Below, piece by piece: positions 156 to 56,222 of a stretch of 64,000 nt of DNA. Within the stretch, counting starts at the first letter, position 1; every line of letters starts with the position of its first letter. The position numbers were made by a program, and so were the translations under genes. The stretch is from Arthrobacter sp. UM1 (GTDB taxonomy: Bacteria > Actinomycetota > Actinomycetes > Actinomycetales > Micrococcaceae): NCBI RefSeq assembly GCF_020483305.1, contig NZ_JACWAB010000001.1, positions 1 to 64,000 on the forward strand. The letters run 5' to 3'. Below the pieces are notes generated by a model, which saw only the letters and a list, made by a program, of their open reading frames with translations, did no database searches and was not told the DNA's origin.

Positions 156-274
156 GTTACGGCTGTCATAGCGTGGGGGAAACGCCCGGTCCCATCCCGA
201 ACCCGGAAGCTAAGGCCCACAGCGCCGATGGTACTGCACTCGTGAGGGTGTGGGAGAGTAGGTCGCAGCCGGAC
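156..274 (+). rRNA. rrf: 5S ribosomal RNA
   Basis: The sequence has the standard actinobacterial 5S layout. The 5' end GTTACGGCTG pairs with the 3' end CAGCCGGAC to form helix I. Between them lie the conserved blocks CCCGGTCCCATCCCGAACC, GGAAGCTAAG, AGCGCCGATGGTACTGC and GTGGGAGAGTAGGTC. The length of about 119 nt fits the family. It closes an rRNA operon whose 16S and 23S genes lie upstream of the window. Ends were placed from the terminal helix and may be off by one or two bases. Confidence 0.97.
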
Positions 275-503: not shown

Positions 504-1163
504 CTAAGACGCGTGCTTGGACTCTTCAGGGGTCAGGACCAGGTCGAGGTACGCGAGCAGGCCGCCGGCTACGTCCACGTGCTCGTCGAGGAGCCATTGC
601 AGCTGCAACCCGTCCCACATGGCCGCGATGCCGGCCGCGGTGGCGGGAATGTCAACGCCCGGCAGCAGTCGTCCTGCTTCCTTCTCTCGGAGCAGGTCGT
701 CGGTGAAGTCCTTCCGGGACTTTCGGAATCGACGCTGGAAATACGGCTTGGCAGGGTGCTCGTCCGTCACCGATTCCCCCACGAGCACGGTGTAGAGGGC
801 GATCAGTCCCGCGATTCGCTCGTTGATGAGGCACTGCCTGCGGATGACATCTCGCAAGGGGAGAGTGCGGTCGACTGGGTGCGGTGTGTCCTCGCCCGTA
901 TAGGCGTCGCGCAGCTCCAGTACGGCTTGGAGCAGATGCGTCTTGGTCGGGAAGTGGTGCAGGAGAGTCGCTTGGCTGATGCCCACGCGGTCGGCGACGG
1001 CTTGAATCGAACCAGAGTGGTAGCCGTGGCAGGCGAAGACGTCGAAGGCCGCTCGGATGATCTGCTCGCGCCGTTCCCGAGTCTTTCGGTAGGGACCGCG
1101 TGGTCCACGGGCGCTCTCCGCCTGAGCCGGTTTGGCGCTGGCTCCATCTCGGGACTGAGTCAT
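504..1163 (-). CDS. TetR/AcrR family transcriptional regulator
   Basis: This 219-residue protein has the TetR architecture. A Lys/Arg-rich tail (GPYRKTRERREQII) leads into an N-terminal helix-turn-helix at about residues 30-75, with IQAVADRVGISQATLLHHFPTK as the core. An all-helical ligand-binding domain follows. It would repress a nearby target in response to an unknown small molecule. It lies 47 bp downstream of the kinase-like gene on the same strand, so the two may be co-transcribed and co-regulated. Codon use is visibly less GC-biased than in the block after 2.3 kb, as is that of its partner, which suggests a shared acquisition next to the rRNA operon. The ligand cannot be predicted. Confidence 0.9.
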   Translation of the reverse strand: MTQSRDGASAKPAQAESARGPRGPYRKTRERREQIIRAAFDVFACHGYHSGSIQAVADRVGISQATLLHHFPTKTHLLQAVLELRDAYTGEDTPHPVDRTLPLRDVIRRQCLINERIAGLIALYTVLVGESVTDEHPAKPYFQRRFRKSRKDFTDDLLREKEAGRLLPGVDIPATAAGIAAMWDGLQLQWLLDEHVDVAGGLLAYLDLVLTPEESKHAS

Positions 1164-1210: not shown

Positions 1211-2236
1211 TCAGCGACCTTCGTGGAGGAGGGGGAGCAGCCACGCGTCTCGGTTGAGGATCTCCGTCTGAAACTCAGATTCCCCGTGCTGTTGTGCCCA
1301 TTCCAGGCCCCCGAGGAACAAGGCGGCCGAATGGAGTGTGAAGGCACGGCGGTGGGCGTCGTCCCATTCTTCGGCCCTGCCGGTCATCCCGAGCCCGGCG
1401 CTGAACGCGCTGTGCAATTCCGGATCGCTTCCGTAGAGCATTTCGAATTCCGCGAATCGCGGTCTGACACCTGCCCTTCCGAAATCGATGAGCCGCACTT
1501 CTCCGTCGGGTGTCACCATCCAGTTTCTGGGGGAGTTGTCTGCGTGAGTCGTATAGAGCGGGAGCACTTGTGGCTCGTAGCCCCGGAGGAATGCCGTGCT
1601 GGTGGAGCAGACGGTTTCAATCCTCTTCTGCTCCTCAGCCGAGCGGGGCACGTATGCCTCGCCGCTGCGGAACGCCTCGATCCGTCGTGTCAACAGGGAG
1701 ATGTTTCCGCCGTCGAAGGAGGAATTGCGAGTCTTGGGCTGTCCGTTGAACGCGCGAGTCGCCGTGCCGGCGGCGTGCCAGATGTCCGGATCTTTTGCCT
1801 TCGGAGTGTTCAGGGCGATCTCACCGGGCACGTACTCGAGGACGAGTATGCCAAGCTCTCGCGAACTCGCTCTGAGGGCAGGCGCGAACGGCGCACCGGG
1901 CTCGATCCACTGCTCGTAGGCCCGGATTTCCCGCAGCATGTGCGGATGGACAGCCGCGAGATGTGGGGAGAGATCCCGGCGTTCGTTCAACGCAGCCCTC
2001 GGCCCGGCCGGGTCCTTCGGAGAGGGCCTCGTCGGTGAATTCCATTCCGGCACGGTGTTCTTCACCACCGCGTCACCGAAGATCGAAGAGCAGATCCGTG
2101 TCACTGCGAGCCCTTGAATGCCCCAGGAGAGGTCCGCGACGACGTGGAAGGAGCCGACGTTCATCTCCAGCCACGCCAGTTGCGAGGCTGTCCAGGGGCG
2201 GCCTGGGCGAGGGCTTTCAGCTGTGCAGGGATCCAC
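1211..2236 (-). CDS. Aminoglycoside phosphotransferase (APH) family kinase-like protein
   Basis: This 341-residue protein belongs to the APH/choline-kinase-like superfamily. The catalytic loop THADNSPRNWMV (HxDxxxxN) and the metal-binding LIDFGRA are intact. Upstream, ILVLEYVPGE resembles the hinge between the lobes. The N-terminal lobe is poorly conserved, with a candidate ATP lysine in AVVKNTV. Such kinases phosphorylate aminoglycosides, macrolides, sugars or other small molecules, and the substrate here is unknown, so resistance should not be assumed. The TetR gene follows on the same strand. Lower GC bias than the neighbours suggests horizontal transfer. The start is the most upstream one; an internal Met at residue 25 is an alternative. 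Confidence 0.75.
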   Translation of the reverse strand: MDPCTAESPRPGRPWTASQLAWLEMNVGSFHVVADLSWGIQGLAVTRICSSIFGDAVVKNTVPEWNSPTRPSPKDPAGPRAALNERRDLSPHLAAVHPHMLREIRAYEQWIEPGAPFAPALRASSRELGILVLEYVPGEIALNTPKAKDPDIWHAAGTATRAFNGQPKTRNSSFDGGNISLLTRRIEAFRSGEAYVPRSAEEQKRIETVCSTSTAFLRGYEPQVLPLYTTHADNSPRNWMVTPDGEVRLIDFGRAGVRPRFAEFEMLYGSDPELHSAFSAGLGMTGRAEEWDDAHRRAFTLHSAALFLGGLEWAQQHGESEFQTEILNRDAWLLPLLHEGR

Positions 2237-2286: not shown

Positions 2287-2341
2287 AGGGGTTCCGCGCG
2301 GGTTCACTGCGCGCCACGATCTCAACGGAGGACATTCACCC

Positions 2342-4018
2342 ATGGCTGGTTTCGGCGATCGAGACTACAACGCCCGCGACGGCCGAGACGGATTCTCTCG
2401 CCGAGACGACAGCCGAGGCGGATTCGGCCGTCCGAGGCGCGACGACGACCGCGGTGGCTTCCGTGGCCCGCGCCGGGACGATGATCGGGGCGGTTTCCGT
2501 GGACCCCGTCGCGACGACGACCGCGGTGGGTTCCGCGGCGGTCGGGATCGTGATGAGCGAGGCGGTGATCGGCGCGAGTTCCGGCCGCGCCGCGACGACG
2601 ACCGCGGTGGCTTCCGTGGCCCGCGCCGGGACGACGATCGGGACGGTTTCCGTGGGCCGCGTCGGGACGACGATCGCGGTGGGTTCCGTGGCGGTCGGGA
2701 TCGTGATGAGCGCGGCGGCGATCGGCGCGAGTTCCGTCCCCGTCGCGACGATGACCGCGGTGGTTTCCGTGGCCCGCGTCGGGATGATGACCGCGGTGGT
2801 TTCCGTGGGCCCCGCCGGGACGATGACCGTGGCGGTTTCCGTGGCGCGCGTCGGGATGATGACCGCGGTGGGTTCCGCGGGGGTCGGGATCGTGATGGGC
2901 GCGGCGGTGATCGGCGCGAGTTCCGCCCGCGTCGCGAGGACGACCGCGGTGGTTTCCGTGGCCCGCGTCGCGAGGACGACCGCGGCGGCTTCCGTGGGCC
3001 GCGCCGGGATGATGACCGTGGCGGTTTCCGTGGTGGCCGGGATCGTGATGAGCGCGGTGGCGATCGCCGCGAGTTCCGTCCCCGCCGCGACGACGACCGC
3101 CGTCGCCCCACGGGCCCCAAGGCCCCGTCCATCGACAAGGACGTGACGGGCAAGGAGCTGGACAGGGCCACGCTCGCCGAGCTGCGGACCCTCGAGGCGA
3201 AGAACGCGGAGCGCGTGGCGAAGCACCTCGTGATGGCGGGACGCTACCTGGACGACGAGCCTCGCAAGGCGTTCGAGCACGCCTCGGCAGCAGCGTCGAG
3301 CGGTGGCCGCGTCTCGCTTGTCCGCGAGGCTGTGGGCGTGGCCGCTTACGCCGCCGGTGAGTACGCCGCCGCCCTCCGGGAGCTGCGCACGTTCCGCCGC
3401 ATCAGCGGCTCCAGCATCCACCTGCCGCTCATGGCGGACTCCGAGCGCGGCCTGGGCCGCCCCGAGAAGGCCCTGGAGCTCGCGCAGAGCGACGAGGCCA
3501 AGGAGCTCGACACGGCAGGCCAGGTCGAGATGGCGATCGTGAGGTCGGGCGCGCTCGGCGACCTCGAGCGCTTCGACGAGGCCCTTGCAGCCCTTGAGAT
3601 CCCGCAGCTGGACATCAACCGCGGGTTCTCCTTCAGCCCGCGCCTCTTCCGCGCCTACGGGGAGGCCCTCACGAACGTGGACCGTGCCGAAGAGGCGGAG
3701 CGCTGGTTCAGCCAGGCCGTCGTCGCGGAGCGGGCCCTCGGTCTGACTGAGGAGGACGAGGACGACGTGGACTTCTTCGACGCAGAGGAGGAGTTCGAGG
3801 ACGAGGCGCCGTCGGGCACGCGGAAGAGCGAGGACAGCGCGCGCGGCGGCGAGACCGCGGAGCGCGTCGACGAGGACGCCCCGGAGGCCGAGGCCGCCGA
3901 GACCCACCCGGGCGGCGCCACGAGCATCCCCCAGCCCGCCGAGCGTGAGCGCGGAGCAGCGGACGAGAACCTTGAGGGCCGTGAGAAGGACCAGGGCGGG
4001 GAGACCCCAGGCGCATGA
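2342..4018 (+). CDS. RGG/RDDD-repeat protein with TPR-like C-terminal domain
   Basis: This 558-residue protein has three parts. Residues 32-247 are a nearly perfect low-complexity repeat of RRDDDRGGFRGP 12-mers punctuated by RDRDERGGDRREFRP 15-mers, so RGG motifs alternate with acidic DDD. Residues of about 260-465 form a helical, TPR-like region (for example RKAFEHASAAAS, GEYAAALRELRTFRRI, AEEAERWFSQAV). The last 85 residues are an acidic disordered tail. RGG regions generally bind RNA and promote condensates, so an RNA- or ribosome-related role is inferred, helped by the neighbouring rRNA methyltransferase TlyA. I chose the ATG at 2342 because it has the GGAGG site; the upstream in-frame extension is unsupported. 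The stop overlaps the HAD gene by ATGA. Confidence 0.85.
   Translation: MAGFGDRDYNARDGRDGFSRRDDSRGGFGRPRRDDDRGGFRGPRRDDDRGGFRGPRRDDDRGGFRGGRDRDERGGDRREFRPRRDDDRGGFRGPRRDDDRDGFRGPRRDDDRGGFRGGRDRDERGGDRREFRPRRDDDRGGFRGPRRDDDRGGFRGPRRDDDRGGFRGARRDDDRGGFRGGRDRDGRGGDRREFRPRREDDRGGFRGPRREDDRGGFRGPRRDDDRGGFRGGRDRDERGGDRREFRPRRDDDRRRPTGPKAPSIDKDVTGKELDRATLAELRTLEAKNAERVAKHLVMAGRYLDDEPRKAFEHASAAASSGGRVSLVREAVGVAAYAAGEYAAALRELRTFRRISGSSIHLPLMADSERGLGRPEKALELAQSDEAKELDTAGQVEMAIVRSGALGDLERFDEALAALEIPQLDINRGFSFSPRLFRAYGEALTNVDRAEEAERWFSQAVVAERALGLTEEDEDDVDFFDAEEEFEDEAPSGTRKSEDSARGGETAERVDEDAPEAEAAETHPGGATSIPQPAERERGAADENLEGREKDQGGETPGA
2435..3082 (+). repeat. Higher-order in-frame tandem repeat (36-bp units plus 45-bp spacers)
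   Basis: The DNA encodes four supermodules. Modules 1, 2 and 4 are three 12-residue units followed by a 15-residue unit (51 aa each). Module 3 has four 12-mers plus the 15-mer (63 aa). Units differ mainly at synonymous positions and by D/E, G/D or P/A/G exchanges. The layout suggests expansion by both unit-level and module-level duplication. Copy number may vary between strains. Confidence 0.95.
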
Positions 4019-4854
4019 CGTTCCGGGACCTGTATGACGGCTTCCTCTTCGATCTCGACGGCGTGGTGTACGCCGGCCAGGGCGCCATCCCGGGGGCGGC
4101 CGAGGCGATCTCGGAGCTCAAGGTCAGCGGCTTCGGCATCGGGTTCGTGACGAACAACGCCTCTCGCTCCGAGGCGGCCGTGGCCGAGCACCTGCGCGAG
4201 CTCGGGGTGCCGGCCGACGAGTCCTGCGTCTTCGGCTCGGCGCGGACGGGCGTCGAGCTGCTCGGCGAGGAGGTGGAGCGCGGTGCCTCCGTCTACGTCG
4301 TGGGGTCCGACTACCTCTCCGGCCTCGTGGCCGAGGCGGGGTACGAGGCCCTCTCCCTCGAGCAGATGGAGCACGGCGCCCGCGCGGACGCCGTCATCCA
4401 GGGCTTCGACCCGGGCCTCGGCTGGCGGCACCTCGCCGCGGCGAGCTACGCGATCGCCGGTGGAGCGGCCTGGGTGGCCACGAACAAGGACGCCACGATC
4501 CCGCGGGCCGAGGGGATCGCCCCGGGCAACGGCGCGCTCGTGGGAACGGTCGAGACGGCCACGGGCAGGATGCCGGCGGTGGGCGGCAAGCCCCAGGCTC
4601 CGATCTTCGAGCGGGCCCAGCGGGAGCTGGGCCTCGAGCGGCCGCTCATGTGCGGCGACCGCCTCGACACGGACATCGCCGGGGCCAACGCCGCCGGCAT
4701 CGACTCGGCGCTCGTCCTCACGGGCATCGACGGCCGCCAGGACGCGGAGCGCGCGGAGACCGGTCTCCGGCCGACGTACGTCGTCGACTCCCTCACCGCG
4801 CTGGTCTCCGGCGACGACCCGGAGCGCCTGCGCCTCGGCGGGGGAGAGCAGTGA
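4015..4854 (+). CDS. HAD-IIA family hydrolase (NagD-like phosphatase)
   Basis: This 279-residue protein has all four HAD motifs. Motif I is FLFDLDGVVYAG near residue 10, motif II is VTNNASRSE, motif III is the Lys in GGKPQAPIF, and motif IV is CGDRLDTDIAGANAAG. A C2-type cap lies between motifs II and III, as in the NagD/4-nitrophenylphosphatase group, which dephosphorylates small phosphorylated metabolites. The substrate is not predictable. The start overlaps the previous stop by ATGA, and the end overlaps the next small gene by GTGA, so these genes are probably one translationally coupled operon with tlyA. Confidence 0.93.
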   Translation: MTFRDLYDGFLFDLDGVVYAGQGAIPGAAEAISELKVSGFGIGFVTNNASRSEAAVAEHLRELGVPADESCVFGSARTGVELLGEEVERGASVYVVGSDYLSGLVAEAGYEALSLEQMEHGARADAVIQGFDPGLGWRHLAAASYAIAGGAAWVATNKDATIPRAEGIAPGNGALVGTVETATGRMPAVGGKPQAPIFERAQRELGLERPLMCGDRLDTDIAGANAAGIDSALVLTGIDGRQDAERAETGLRPTYVVDSLTALVSGDDPERLRLGGGEQ

Positions 4855-5124: not shown

Positions 5125-5949
5125 ATGAGGCTGGACCGCGCCCTCGTTGACCGCGGTCTGGCCGTCTCGCGGACGGCTGCGGCGGCGCTCATCGCCGAGG
5201 GGCGGGTCGAGCTCAACGGCTCCGTCGCCGCCAAGGCCGGGCAGAAGACGTCCGACTCCGACTCGATCGGCGTCCGCCCCGGTCAGACCCCCGATTTCGT
5301 CTCACGGGCCGGTCAGAAGCTATACGGGGCCCTGCGGGCCGTCGGAGACCTCGACGTGCGCGGACTGCGCTGCCTTGACGCCGGCGCCTCCACCGGCGGC
5401 TTCACGGATGTCCTGCTGCGGGAGGGCGCGGAGCGCGTCGTCGCCGTCGACGTGGGGCACGGGCAGCTCGTGCCGAGCCTTCGCGGGGACGCGCGCGTGG
5501 AGGCCATCGAGGGCCTCAACGTCCGGTTCTTGGAGCCGGAGGAGATCGGCGGGCCGGTGGACCTCACGGTGGCGGACCTGTCCTTCATCTCGCTCACGCT
5601 GGTCCTCGAGCCGCTGGTCCGGGCGACGGCGGAGGGCGGCGTGCTCCTGCTCATGGTCAAGCCGCAGTTCGAGGTGGGGCGCGAGCGGATCGGTGCGGGC
5701 GGGGTGGTGCGCGAGCCCTCCGAGCGGAAGCGCGCCGTGCGGGCCGTCCTGGAGAAGGCGGAGTCCCTGGGGCTCGAGCTGCGCACGGTCAGCCGCTCCG
5801 CCCTTCCGGGGCAGGACGGGAACCTGGAGTACTTCGCCGAATGGGCGCGGCCGGCCGCGCCCGGGAGAGCGGGGCGGAGGCCCGCCCGTAAGATCGGAGT
5901 GGACGAGGCGCTGGCGCAGCTCGAGAGCTCCGGCGCCTTCGAGTCCTGA
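5125..5949 (+). CDS. tlyA: TlyA family rRNA 2'-O-methyltransferase
   Basis: This 274-residue protein has an N-terminal S4 RNA-binding domain (MRLDRALVDRGLAVSRTAAA, continuing through IAEGRVELNG) followed by an FtsJ-like Rossmann methyltransferase. The SAM motif is CLDAGASTGGFTDVLL, and the acidic motif VDLTVADLSFISL and MVKPQFE follow. TlyA proteins 2'-O-methylate rRNA and, where both sites are modified, influence capreomycin susceptibility. Linkage to NAD kinase and recN is the usual actinobacterial and firmicute order. The stop codon lies inside a 14-bp tandem repeat described separately. Confidence 0.95.
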   Translation: MRLDRALVDRGLAVSRTAAAALIAEGRVELNGSVAAKAGQKTSDSDSIGVRPGQTPDFVSRAGQKLYGALRAVGDLDVRGLRCLDAGASTGGFTDVLLREGAERVVAVDVGHGQLVPSLRGDARVEAIEGLNVRFLEPEEIGGPVDLTVADLSFISLTLVLEPLVRATAEGGVLLLMVKPQFEVGRERIGAGGVVREPSERKRAVRAVLEKAESLGLELRTVSRSALPGQDGNLEYFAEWARPAAPGRAGRRPARKIGVDEALAQLESSGAFES

Positions 5950-6044: not shown

Positions 6045-6982
6045 ATGAGCGGAGCGGAACAGAGGCGAGTGCTCGTCCGCGCACACCTCGGGCGCCCCGA
6101 GGCCCTGCGGGCGGCGTGCGAGACCCTGAGCCAGCTGGAGGCGGCCGGCCTGACGCCGGTCCTGCTCGCGGCGGACGCGGCGGAGTCGCCGCGCCTGACC
6201 GAGTCGGCGCCGTCGGCCCTCGTCGTCGAGGCCCTCGCGGACGCGGAGCCGATCGAGGTGTGCATGGTCCTCGGCGGGGACGGCTCGATCCTGCGCGCCG
6301 CGGACATCGTGCGGGGGCACGGCATCCCGCTCCTCGGCGTGAACCTGGGGCACGTCGGCTTCCTCGCGGAGAGCGAGAGGGCGGACCTGGCGGAGACGGT
6401 GAGGACCGTCTCCGAGCGCCGCTACACGGTGGAGCGGCGCATGGCCCTGGACATCACGGTCTTCGAGGGCGCGCGGCAGGTGCACCGCACGTGGGCTCTC
6501 AACGAGGCCGCCATCGAGAAGGAGAACCGCTCCCGGATGATCGAGGTGGTCATCGGAGTGGACGGACGCCCGGTGAGCAGCTTCGGGTGCGACGGCATGT
6601 GCGTCTCCACCCCGACGGGCTCGACCGCCTACTCTTTCTCTGCCGGGGGACCGGTGGTGTGGCCGGAGGTGGAGGCGCTGGTCATGACCCCCATCGCGGC
6701 GCACGCGCTCTTCGCGAAGCCGCTCGTCATCTCCCCGAGCTCAGAGATCTCCATCCGGATTCTGCAGCGCACGGACGCCCGCGGCGTCCTCTGGAGCGAC
6801 GGGCGGGACGAGATCGAGCTCGCCCCCGGCTCCCTTGTGAGGATCGTCCGGGCGGACGAGCCCGTGAGCATCGCCCGCGTCAACGCCACGCCGTTCTCCG
6901 AGCGGCTCGTGCGCAAGTTCCACCTGCCCACCACGGGGTGGCGGGGCCCCGTCGACGAGTCGAGCGGAACGGAGGAGACCGC

Positions 6983-6986
<4 letters not shown>
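6045..6986 (+). CDS. nadK: NAD(+) kinase
   Basis: This 313-residue enzyme phosphorylates NAD to NADP. The diagnostic GGDGSILRAAD motif is at about residues 77-87. It is followed by GVNLGHVGFLAE, by NEAAIEK, and by the glycine-rich SPTGSTAYSFSAGGP-like segment (TPTGSTAYSFSAGGPVVWPEV). The length fits the actinobacterial family. The ATG has a GAAGGGGAG ribosome-binding site about 6 nt upstream. The stop overlaps recN by GTGA, so NADP supply and recombination repair genes are co-translated, an arrangement common in actinobacteria. Confidence 0.96.
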
Positions 6987-10481
<3,495 letters not shown>

Positions 10482-54053: not shown

Positions 54054-56222
54054 GTGACCGAATCCACCGACCTCGAAGCAGGCACGGAATCGAACGCCCC
54101 TGCGCGCTCCAGCGCAGGCGCCGGACTCGCGAGCCTCAAGCTCGCCCAGCTTCAGAATCTTGCGGCCCAGCTCGGCATCACGGGCTCCAAGCGGATGCGC
54201 AAGTCGGATCTCGTGAGCGCGATCCAGGACCACCAGCGCGGATCCTCGATCGTGGCCAAGGACGCCGCTGAGAGCCGCGCCGCAGCCGAGAAGTCCGGCC
54301 AGCAGGCCGAGGCGAAGGGCGGTGCTGACCAGAGCGGCGCCGACCAGAGCGAGGCGGGCCAGCCCCAGGGCGGCGAGAAGCCCTCCCGCCGCTCCCGCGG
54401 CTCCAAGAAGGCGGAGGCCAGCGCCCAGACCGAGTCTGAGGGCGCCGAGCGCTCCGCGGACGCCGAGGCCGCGGGTTCCGCCCAGGGCTCGGACGGTGAG
54501 CAGCAGGACGGCGGCTCGCGCCGCGGCCGCGGCCGTCGCCGCGCCTCCTCCGAGCAGGGCGCCCTCTCCGAGAGCGGCCAGGGCGGCTCGGCGGAGAAGG
54601 ACGAGTCCCGCGAGCAGAACGGCCGCGAGAAGCAGGGAGGCCGTGAGCAGGGCGGCGCAGACCAGCAGTCCGGCGGCGAGCAGCAGAACGGCCGCGAGCA
54701 GGGCGGCAAGGACCAGAACGGCCGCGGCGAGTCCTCCGAGAAGGACGGCGAGCGCTCCGGGCGCGGCCGCAACCGGCGCAACCGCCGCAACCGCGGCGAG
54801 GGCGACCAGGACGGCCAGGGCTCCGAGGGCGGCAAGAACAACGACGGCGGCCGCAGCGACAAGTCCGAGAAGCAGGACAAGTCGGACCGGAACGACCGCA
54901 ACGACCGCAACGACCGCGGCGGCCGTGACAACGACGACGAGGGCGGCGGAGGCCGCCGCTCGCGCCGCAACCGCCGGGACCGCAACCGGAATGACCGGAA
55001 CGAGCGGCGCCGCCGCGGCGGACACCCGGATGTGGACGACACGGAGCTGACCGAGGACGACGTCCTCCTGCCCGTGGCCGGCATCCTGGACATCCTGGAC
55101 AACTACGCGTTCGTCCGCACCTCCGGCTACCTCCCGGGCTCCAAGGACGTCTACGTCACGCTGAACCAGGTCAAGAAGTACAACATGCGCAAGGGCGACG
55201 CCGTCGTCGGCGCTGTCCGCGCCCCGCGGGACGGCGAGGAGCAGAACCGCGGCAACTCGAACCGCGCGAAGTTCAACGCGCTCCTGCGCGTCTCGACGAT
55301 CAACGGGCGCCCGGCGGACGAGAACCAGGACCGCGTCGAGTTCAACAAGCTCGTCCCGCTCTACCCGCAGGAGCGCCTGCGCCTCGAGACCGAGCCGAAG
55401 AAGGTGGGCACGCGCGTCATCGACCTCGTCTCGCCGATCGGCAAGGGCCAGCGCGGCCTCATCGTCTCCCCGCCGAAGGCCGGCAAGACGATGATCCTGC
55501 AGTCGATCGCCAACGCGATCACGACGAACAACCCGGAAGTCCACCTCATGATGGTGCTCGTCGACGAGCGCCCCGAGGAGGTCACGGACATGCAGCGCTC
55601 GGTCAAGGGCGAGGTCATCGCCTCGACCTTCGACCGCCCGGCGGACGACCACACGACCGTGGCCGAGCTCGCCATCGAGCGCGCCAAGCGCCTCGTGGAG
55701 ATGGGCAAGGACGTCGTGGTGCTCCTCGACTCCATGACCCGCCTGGGCCGCGCCTACAACCTCGCGGCGCCTGCCTCGGGCCGCATCCTCTCCGGCGGTG
55801 TGGACTCGGCGGCGCTCTACCCGCCGAAGCGCTTCTTCGGCGCGGCCCGCAACATCGAGAACGGCGGCTCGCTCACCATCCTGGCCACCGCGCTCGTGGA
55901 GACGGGCTCCAAGATGGACGAGGTCATCTTCGAGGAGTTCAAGGGCACCGGCAACATGGAGCTCCGCCTCTCGCGCCAGCTCGCGGACCGCCGCATCTTC
56001 CCGGCCGTGGACGTCAACGCGTCCGGCACGCGCCGCGAGGAGAACCTGCTCTCCCAGGAGGAGGTCAAGATCATGTGGAAGCTCCGCCGCGTGCTCTCCG
56101 GCCTCGAGACCCAGCAGGCGCTCGAGCTTCTGACCAACAAGATCCGCGAGACGAACTCGAACGTCGAGTTCCTCATGCAGGTCCAGAAGACGACGCTCGG
56201 CTCCAAGGGCGACGACGACTGA
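54054..56222 (+). CDS. rho: Transcription termination factor Rho with extended N-terminal insert
   Basis: This 722-residue hexameric RNA helicase begins with the Rho_N domain (ASLKLAQLQNLAAQLGITGSKRMRKSDLVSAI). A hydrophilic Gln/Gly/Arg/Asn insert of about 245 residues follows, typical of high-GC actinobacteria (repeated QNGRE, NDRN, SGGE). The RNA-binding cold-shock-like domain and the ATPase domain are next, with Walker A SPPKAGKTMIL (about residue 475), Walker B VVLLDSMTRLGRAYN, and the Q-/R-loop region. The GTG start is used. No defect is seen. Confidence 0.96.
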   Translation: MTESTDLEAGTESNAPARSSAGAGLASLKLAQLQNLAAQLGITGSKRMRKSDLVSAIQDHQRGSSIVAKDAAESRAAAEKSGQQAEAKGGADQSGADQSEAGQPQGGEKPSRRSRGSKKAEASAQTESEGAERSADAEAAGSAQGSDGEQQDGGSRRGRGRRRASSEQGALSESGQGGSAEKDESREQNGREKQGGREQGGADQQSGGEQQNGREQGGKDQNGRGESSEKDGERSGRGRNRRNRRNRGEGDQDGQGSEGGKNNDGGRSDKSEKQDKSDRNDRNDRNDRGGRDNDDEGGGGRRSRRNRRDRNRNDRNERRRRGGHPDVDDTELTEDDVLLPVAGILDILDNYAFVRTSGYLPGSKDVYVTLNQVKKYNMRKGDAVVGAVRAPRDGEEQNRGNSNRAKFNALLRVSTINGRPADENQDRVEFNKLVPLYPQERLRLETEPKKVGTRVIDLVSPIGKGQRGLIVSPPKAGKTMILQSIANAITTNNPEVHLMMVLVDERPEEVTDMQRSVKGEVIASTFDRPADDHTTVAELAIERAKRLVEMGKDVVVLLDSMTRLGRAYNLAAPASGRILSGGVDSAALYPPKRFFGAARNIENGGSLTILATALVETGSKMDEVIFEEFKGTGNMELRLSRQLADRRIFPAVDVNASGTRREENLLSQEEVKIMWKLRRVLSGLETQQALELLTNKIRETNSNVEFLMQVQKTTLGSKGDDD

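Follow-up and report, generated by a model that had tools for sequence, protein, structure and literature searches.

Much less is known about how ribosomes are assembled in the actinobacteria, a group that includes major pathogens and antibiotic producers, than in E. coli. The described systems closest to the gene reported here are the eukaryotic RGG-box RNA-binding proteins, the arginine-rich mixed-charge domains and a mycobacterial TPR protein. According to the available portion of the source (PMC9324279), arginine-rich mixed-charge domains were tested in human cells and with peptides only; in the human cells they localise to nuclear speckles or the nucleolus, and alternating R/D peptides showed no phase separation, whereas blocky ones did and had affinity for RNA and poly-Glu. 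The mycobacterial protein, MSMEG_3754 (Rv1691), is annotated as a TPR protein and, in the excerpted part of the report (PMC7092591), is a high-confidence entry among the proteins that came down with cross-linked RNA polymerase from M. smegmatis; a pull-down with FLAG-MSMEG_3754 yielded no DNA, while three other candidates did, and the authors stated that the protein may simply be RNA associated. Extracts of further papers place MSMEG_3754 in the ClpC1 interactome (PMC10433963), give the operon order Rv1691 - Rv1692 - Rv1693 - tlyA - ppnK - recN (PMC3072309), and locate the second mycobacterial rRNA operon downstream of tyrS (PMC10218544).

The window analysed here is the whole 64,000-nt stretch of Arthrobacter sp. 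UM1; the contig begins at its base 1, just before a 5S rRNA gene. The features concerned are as follows (window positions and strand):

158..274, plus strand: 5S rRNA gene, end of the upstream rRNA operon (Rfam RF00001, 101 bits)
504..1163, minus strand: TetR-type regulator between 5S and repeat gene (Pfam TetR_N, E 3.1e-15)
1211..2236, minus strand: APH-like phosphotransferase between 5S and repeat gene (Pfam APH, E 2.3e-9)
2327..2332, plus strand: ribosome-binding site GGAGGA (sequence)
2342..4018, plus strand: whole ORF, 558 aa (ORF translation)
2342..3124, plus strand: Arg-rich mixed-charge disordered N-tail, residues 1-261 (composition, low pLDDT)
2435..3082, plus strand: 12/15 repeat array, residues 32-247 (motif positions)
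2543..2587, plus strand: 15-mer 1, RDRDERGGDRREFRP (motif positions)
2696..2740, plus strand: 15-mer 2 (motif positions)
2885..2929, plus strand: 15-mer 3 (motif positions)
3038..3082, plus strand: 15-mer 4 (motif positions)
3125..3751, plus strand: TPR core, about residues 262-470 (alignment, AlphaFold2, Foldseek)
3752..4015, plus strand: acidic C-tail, residues 471-558 (net -23)
4015..4854, plus strand: HAD-IIA hydrolase; overlaps the TPR gene's stop codon (TIGR01460, 127.8 bits; cut-off exceeded)
5125..5949, plus strand: TlyA-type rRNA methyltransferase (FtsJ and S4 above cut-off; TIGR00478, 180 bits vs. cut-off 185.8)
6045..6986, plus strand: NAD kinase (NF002892, 410 bits)
6980..8701, plus strand: RecN, start approximate (TIGR00634, 521 bits)

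The ORF at 2342-4018 starts with an ATG preceded by GGAGGA 9 nt to its 5′ side. The protein has a three-part architecture, consisting of an Arg-rich disordered N-tail, a conserved TPR core and, often, an acidic C-tail; in the full-length AlphaFold2 model, both tails were mostly below pLDDT 50 and the core was mostly at 83-96. Composition analysis of the N-tail (residues 1-261) revealed 34% Arg, 23% Gly and 23% Asp (D+E 26%), with a net charge of +21 and 60% charged residues. A long R-dominated stretch with D/E and a net positive charge is characteristic of an Arg-rich mixed-charge domain, and the 12 RGGFRG motifs clustered in this disordered region (residues 37-231) resemble those of RGG-box RNA-binding proteins. 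The acidic tail that the original prediction had read from the letters alone was recovered as the last 88 residues (471-558), with a net charge of -23. It was also noticed that the repeat region (window 2336-3907) is open in further frames, giving minus-strand ORFs of 523 and 268 aa and a plus-strand ORF of 230 aa. These extra open frames are a by-product of the repeats and the high G+C, and could mislead gene callers.

Residues 32-247 contain thirteen 12-mers of the RRDDDRGGFRGP type, grouped as 3, 3, 4 and 3, and a 15-residue insert closes every group, i.e. after the 3rd, 6th, 10th and 13th 12-mer unit, and a degenerate 14th unit begins at residue 248. The 12-mer anchors (RR[DE]DDR[GD]GFRG) were located at residues 32, 44, 56, 83, 95, 107 and 134, and further ones at residues 146, 158, 170, 197, 209 and 221, so the order predicted for this region, [12]x3+15, [12]x3+15, [12]x4+15, [12]x3+15, is exact. 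Self-identity at period 12 was 0.62, as compared with at most 0.36 in 2000 residue shuffles over all periods of 6-29, and the array is not due to chance. Among 834 windows of 200 aa, taken from the open frames of the 64-kb window, only 4 had R≥25% together with D+E≥20%, all in the open frame of the repeat protein. Comparison of ten 12-mers (degenerate last unit included) gave a pS of 0.53 and a pN of 0.08 (pN/pS 0.15), and that of four 27-mers gave 0.47 and 0.008, respectively (pN/pS 0.018). The repeat copies therefore differ mainly at silent sites, indicating that the repeats kept their protein sequence as the underlying DNA drifted. The idea that RGGF repeats are a general habit of the genome was rejected upon a search of the UM1 genome with the tail, which matched itself alone; the RGGFRG pattern had 13 matches, 12 inside the repeat gene and the 13th antisense within a helicase-like ORF. 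Two sub-threshold matches were also set aside, that to Pfam RDM3_C (residues 10-129; 24.1 bits, below the cut-off of 35) being taken as a composition match and that to SymR (2507-2596, inside the repeats; 27.4 bits, below the cut-off of 61) as chance.

In the AlphaFold2 model the core was all helical, with a mean pLDDT of 89.4 and the tandem helix-turn-helix repeats of a TPR superhelix, and it matched mainly TPR proteins in Foldseek and VIA searches, which bears out the TPR-like region of the original prediction. The matches included 8chy (Foldseek, E 2.8e-4) and 2pl2 (VIA, Z 15.3 over 171 residues, 3.3 Å); since a Z of about 15 is common among helical repeats, the latter supports the fold only. 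The PDB matches were TPR proteins of many functions, and the core was therefore read as a docking module. With the UM1 protein, no Pfam TPR model exceeded its curated cut-off (TPR_2, 21.3 bits vs. 27); with E 0.01 as the limit, TPR_2 matched 27 of 42 aligned cores. Searches of NCBIfam gave no match to the UM1 protein at E 0.1 or to its core at E 0.01, and weak, scattered matches only in other family members. The possibility of a known structure for the family was dismissed, as the PDB profile search had no match at E 0.01 and the fold searches gave generic TPRs. The repeat/TPR protein belongs to no named family.

The 5S gene at 158-274 had not been mentioned in the original prediction; it is on the same strand as the repeat gene. 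The sister species likewise has a TetR-type and an APH-like gene between the 5S and the TPR gene, and there a complete 16S-23S-5S operon precedes this pair. The APH-like proteins of UM1 and the sister species were 43% identical, which is low compared with 86% for the TPR core. Downstream, the predicted HAD (4015-4854) and tlyA (5125-5949) neighbours were both identified, and HAD, tlyA, nadK and recN follow the TPR gene in an order like that of the Rv1691 operon as given in the extract of PMC3072309. On the basis of gene order and, from the excerpted report, TPR annotation, Rv1691/MSMEG_3754 is likely the ortholog.

Among the 58 evaluable genomes, i.e. those with at least 1000 bp of upstream sequence, rRNA was located on the same strand at most 1 kb upstream of the gene in 40, representing 22 of 27 families. 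The own family had this arrangement in 4 of 14 genomes and the other families in 36 of 44; in the remaining eight of these 44 the rRNA neighbourhood was absent, and Rfam detected no 5S in those eight loci. An Rfam recheck of 19 loci without a close 5S detected none in 18 and a 5S about 2.8 kb upstream in L079. All three rRNAs (16S-23S-5S) were present in each of the five operons followed further, and tyrS preceded 16S in all three scanned loci (order tyrS - 16S - 23S - 5S - TPR gene), as in the second mycobacterial operon according to the extract of PMC10218544. Within about 5 kb downstream, HAD was found in 13 and TlyA in 7 of 20 genomes, so that the linkage to rRNA looks tighter, although the genome sets differ. 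These results show that the position of the gene, shortly after an rRNA operon, is conserved.

In 44 of 109 loci with 5S, the start lay at most 160 nt away and a stem of at least 8 bp followed the 5S. The distance from this hairpin to the start had a median of 51.5 nt in the 44 loci and was 35 nt or less in 6 of them; two of the six, L157 and L198, had no SD and their starts are doubtful, and in L177, L185, L176 and L046 the distances were 21, 21, 29 and 31 nt, respectively, with the SD inside. A gap of 21-31 nt leaves no space for an ordinary promoter; for these four lineages the simplest inference would be that the rRNA transcript reads through into the gene, or else that a promoter overlaps the hairpin itself. 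Members of the own family have a longer gap between 5S and gene, which measures about 2.07 kb in the window, and a separate promoter is therefore likely there. A scan of the region before the UM1 gene for promoters of the sigma-70 type, the one type covered, found none. In L141 and L143, two large genomes probably of Streptomyces, TACAAT/TATAAT was observed directly after the rRNA hairpin; it is possible that this is a -10 element joined to the terminator.

Of 59 relatives, 57 have the core; genome samples of the class Actinomycetia and of the phylum gave it in 176 of 197 and 82 of 198, respectively. For comparison of the tails we used 115 orthologs, comprising 56 of the 57 matched relatives and 59 hand-picked for family breadth from the class and phylum samples; the three duplicate loci L057-L059, and also L140, were excluded before counting, the 80 named loci L060-L139 were outside the count, and 6 orthologs with tails shorter than 30 aa, some of them truncated where the contig stops, are not part of the resulting set of 109. 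The ortholog starts were picked by script as an upstream ATG/GTG with an SD-like site, and the tail lengths are therefore approximate, a few being too long or doubtful (e.g. L158, L190, L191 and L198). Of these 109 tails of at least 30 aa, 108 contained at least 15% R and 108 were net positive, the median composition being 23% R, 18% G, 16% D+E and 1% K. Counted tails ranged from about 30 to 685 aa, and those of family f22 from 17 to 685 aa (f22 and f21 appear to be Mycobacteriaceae and Streptomyces, respectively); some orthologs were almost tail-less. Of the 99 tails with at least 60 aa, 55 were periodic to a degree that none of 200 shuffles reached, and their best periods took about 30 different values. 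C-tails of at least 30 aa were found in only 65 of the 115 orthologs, 63 of the 65 being acidic; acidic C-tails are not general across orthologs.

Between UM1 and the sister species, 10% of 4-mers were common to the tails and 50% to the cores; the units were of the type given above in UM1 and REDRGGFRGP/REDRGGFQG in the sister species, and the third congener had few RGG in its tail. The strict 12/15 RGG pattern thus holds in UM1 but not as a conserved feature, and comparison of the tails did not bear out an absence of repeats from all relatives, which the prediction had named among the findings that would count against it. Since units and lengths vary while an Arg-rich, net-basic tail is near-universal, it is the composition that is conserved and the 12/15 pattern that is local. 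In three genomes with a locus G+C of 0.51-0.52, Arg/Lys numbers were 26/0, 15/1 and 27/2 in the tails vs. 18/10, 16/12 and 19/11 in the cores. Tails thus keep Arg without Lys at this G+C, and base composition alone does not explain them. It was also noticed that L040 and L045, from other families of the same order, have extreme N-tail repeats of other units (RPSSDRPRTDRPWENRGGSD and RPPREGERRYDS, respectively).

Taken together, the best explanation of the protein is a candidate accessory factor of ribosome assembly or transcription, which would bind RNA, be coupled to rRNA and dock through its TPR core. Its usual place after the rRNA operon suggests a putative partner of ribosomal RNA; on the broader statement, that it is an actinobacterial RNA-handling factor tied to rRNA synthesis throughout the phylum, our confidence is evenly divided. 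The link to RNA proposed in the original prediction is partly and indirectly supported by the rRNA-operon position, by the Arg-rich tails in 108 of 109 orthologs and by the co-purification of MSMEG_3754 with RNA polymerase. The Arg-rich tail may hold nascent pre-rRNA or other RNA via many weak Arg/Gly contacts, the TPR core may dock a protein that works in transcription or in ribosome assembly, and the acidic C-tail, where present, may compete with RNA for the basic tail or recruit basic ribosomal proteins. A start 21-31 nt after the post-5S hairpin could couple synthesis to rRNA output by terminator read-through. Selection would act on tail composition and length, and we propose that repeats consequently expand, get replaced and stay in frame. 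The fullest version, in which a nucleolar-protein-like factor at the end of the rRNA operon, with an Arg-rich disordered tail and a TPR hub, is translated from rRNA read-through, so that each rRNA burst supplies its own assembly or organising protein and the tail is selected for composition and not sequence, we consider doubtful.

In favour of the rRNA-coupled factor, Rho in the window, an RNA-binding enzyme, also has an Arg-rich insert. Against it, the arrangement is found in only 4 of 14 genomes of the own family, two opposite-strand genes part the 5S from the UM1 gene, 8 of 44 genomes of other families have no rRNA neighbourhood, some orthologs are nearly tail-less, and acidic tails are not general. 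In addition, old synteny alone can keep genes beside rRNA operons, and tyrS stays too. It is conceivable, with a probability that we put as low but appreciable, that the protein is associated with transcripts in general and not with rRNA in particular, as an RNA chaperone or a scaffold for RNA decay, and that its place at the rRNA operon is ancient synteny; the co-purification with RNA polymerase is itself not rRNA-specific, and tyrS likewise stays at the same operon. However, rRNA was kept more often upstream (36/44) than HAD (13/20) or TlyA (7/20) downstream, in genome sets that differ, and the neighbourhood is therefore not one equally conserved block. The ClpC1 interactome entry of MSMEG_3754, as listed in the extract of PMC10433963, would fit a role in protein quality control, and DNA is a conceivable ligand of the Arg-rich tail; a role as a DNA or nucleoid protein, or as an adaptor in ClpC1-type proteolysis, nevertheless appears quite improbable, as FLAG-MSMEG_3754 gave no DNA while three other candidates did (PMC7092591, excerpted part). 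That pull-down is not decisive, since MSMEG_3754 may have only a short tail.

Being rich in Arg, Gly and Phe and 60% charged, the tail could belong to a condensate scaffold, the strong form of the original prediction, in which the RGG/acid repeats would phase-separate together with RNA to form foci of transcription or decay, and the entry of Arg-rich mixed-charge domains into nuclear speckles or the nucleolus (PMC9324279, available portion) is in line with this. We regard it as unlikely, because the charges in the N-tail are mixed more evenly than in shuffles (delta5 0.046 vs. 0.0875, sd 0.017), the alternating R/D peptides of the same source did not phase-separate, unlike the blocky ones, and tail length varies from about 30 to 685 aa. 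That units differ between congeners and that only 55 of 99 tails are significantly periodic would also be expected from minisatellite drift, the tail then being a tolerated low-complexity region with no function of its own. The pN/pS of 0.02-0.15 between copies, the fact that 108 of 109 orthologs keep an Arg-rich net-basic composition although their units differ, and the avoidance of Lys at moderate G+C make this very improbable; they are consistent with the tail of a nearly class-wide gene being under compositional selection.

The candidate ribosome-assembly or rRNA-transcription factor is of interest as a possibly missing one, being encoded by a nearly class-wide gene without an NCBIfam name, with an Arg-rich tail, usually at the end of an rRNA operon; moreover, about 100 natural tails with similar chemistry and different sequence are a tool for asking what disordered tails must conserve. 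TPR domains, RGG/mixed-charge tails and RNA-polymerase association are each already known, and their combination in a single, nearly class-wide family that has no name and usually lies behind an rRNA operon was absent from the literature searched. Searches on RGG proteins in actinobacteria and on mycobacterial RNA-binding proteomes returned nothing on the TPR/Arg-tail family, and its rRNA linkage and Arg-rich tail were undescribed in the literature covered, with preprint servers and most subscription papers lying outside. In the same genome, Rho (window 54054-56222, plus strand) has a long Arg-rich insert with DRN and RNR repeats; it resembles the UM1 tail as an R/N/D/G-rich stretch in an RNA-acting protein and differs from it in its DRN-type repeats and unrelated domain. 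Eukaryotic RGG-box proteins are similar in having RGGF/RGG clustered within a disordered tail, with no demonstrable homology, but nearly every RGGF in the UM1 protein is in an acidic RRDDD context, and what the relatives' tails preserve is Arg and the net charge, not RGG itself. As for the arginine-rich mixed-charge domains, as described in the available portion of PMC9324279, the UM1 tail is similar in that R and D make up most of it and the net charge is positive, whereas it differs in its bacterial origin, its Gly/Phe admixture and its attachment to a TPR domain.
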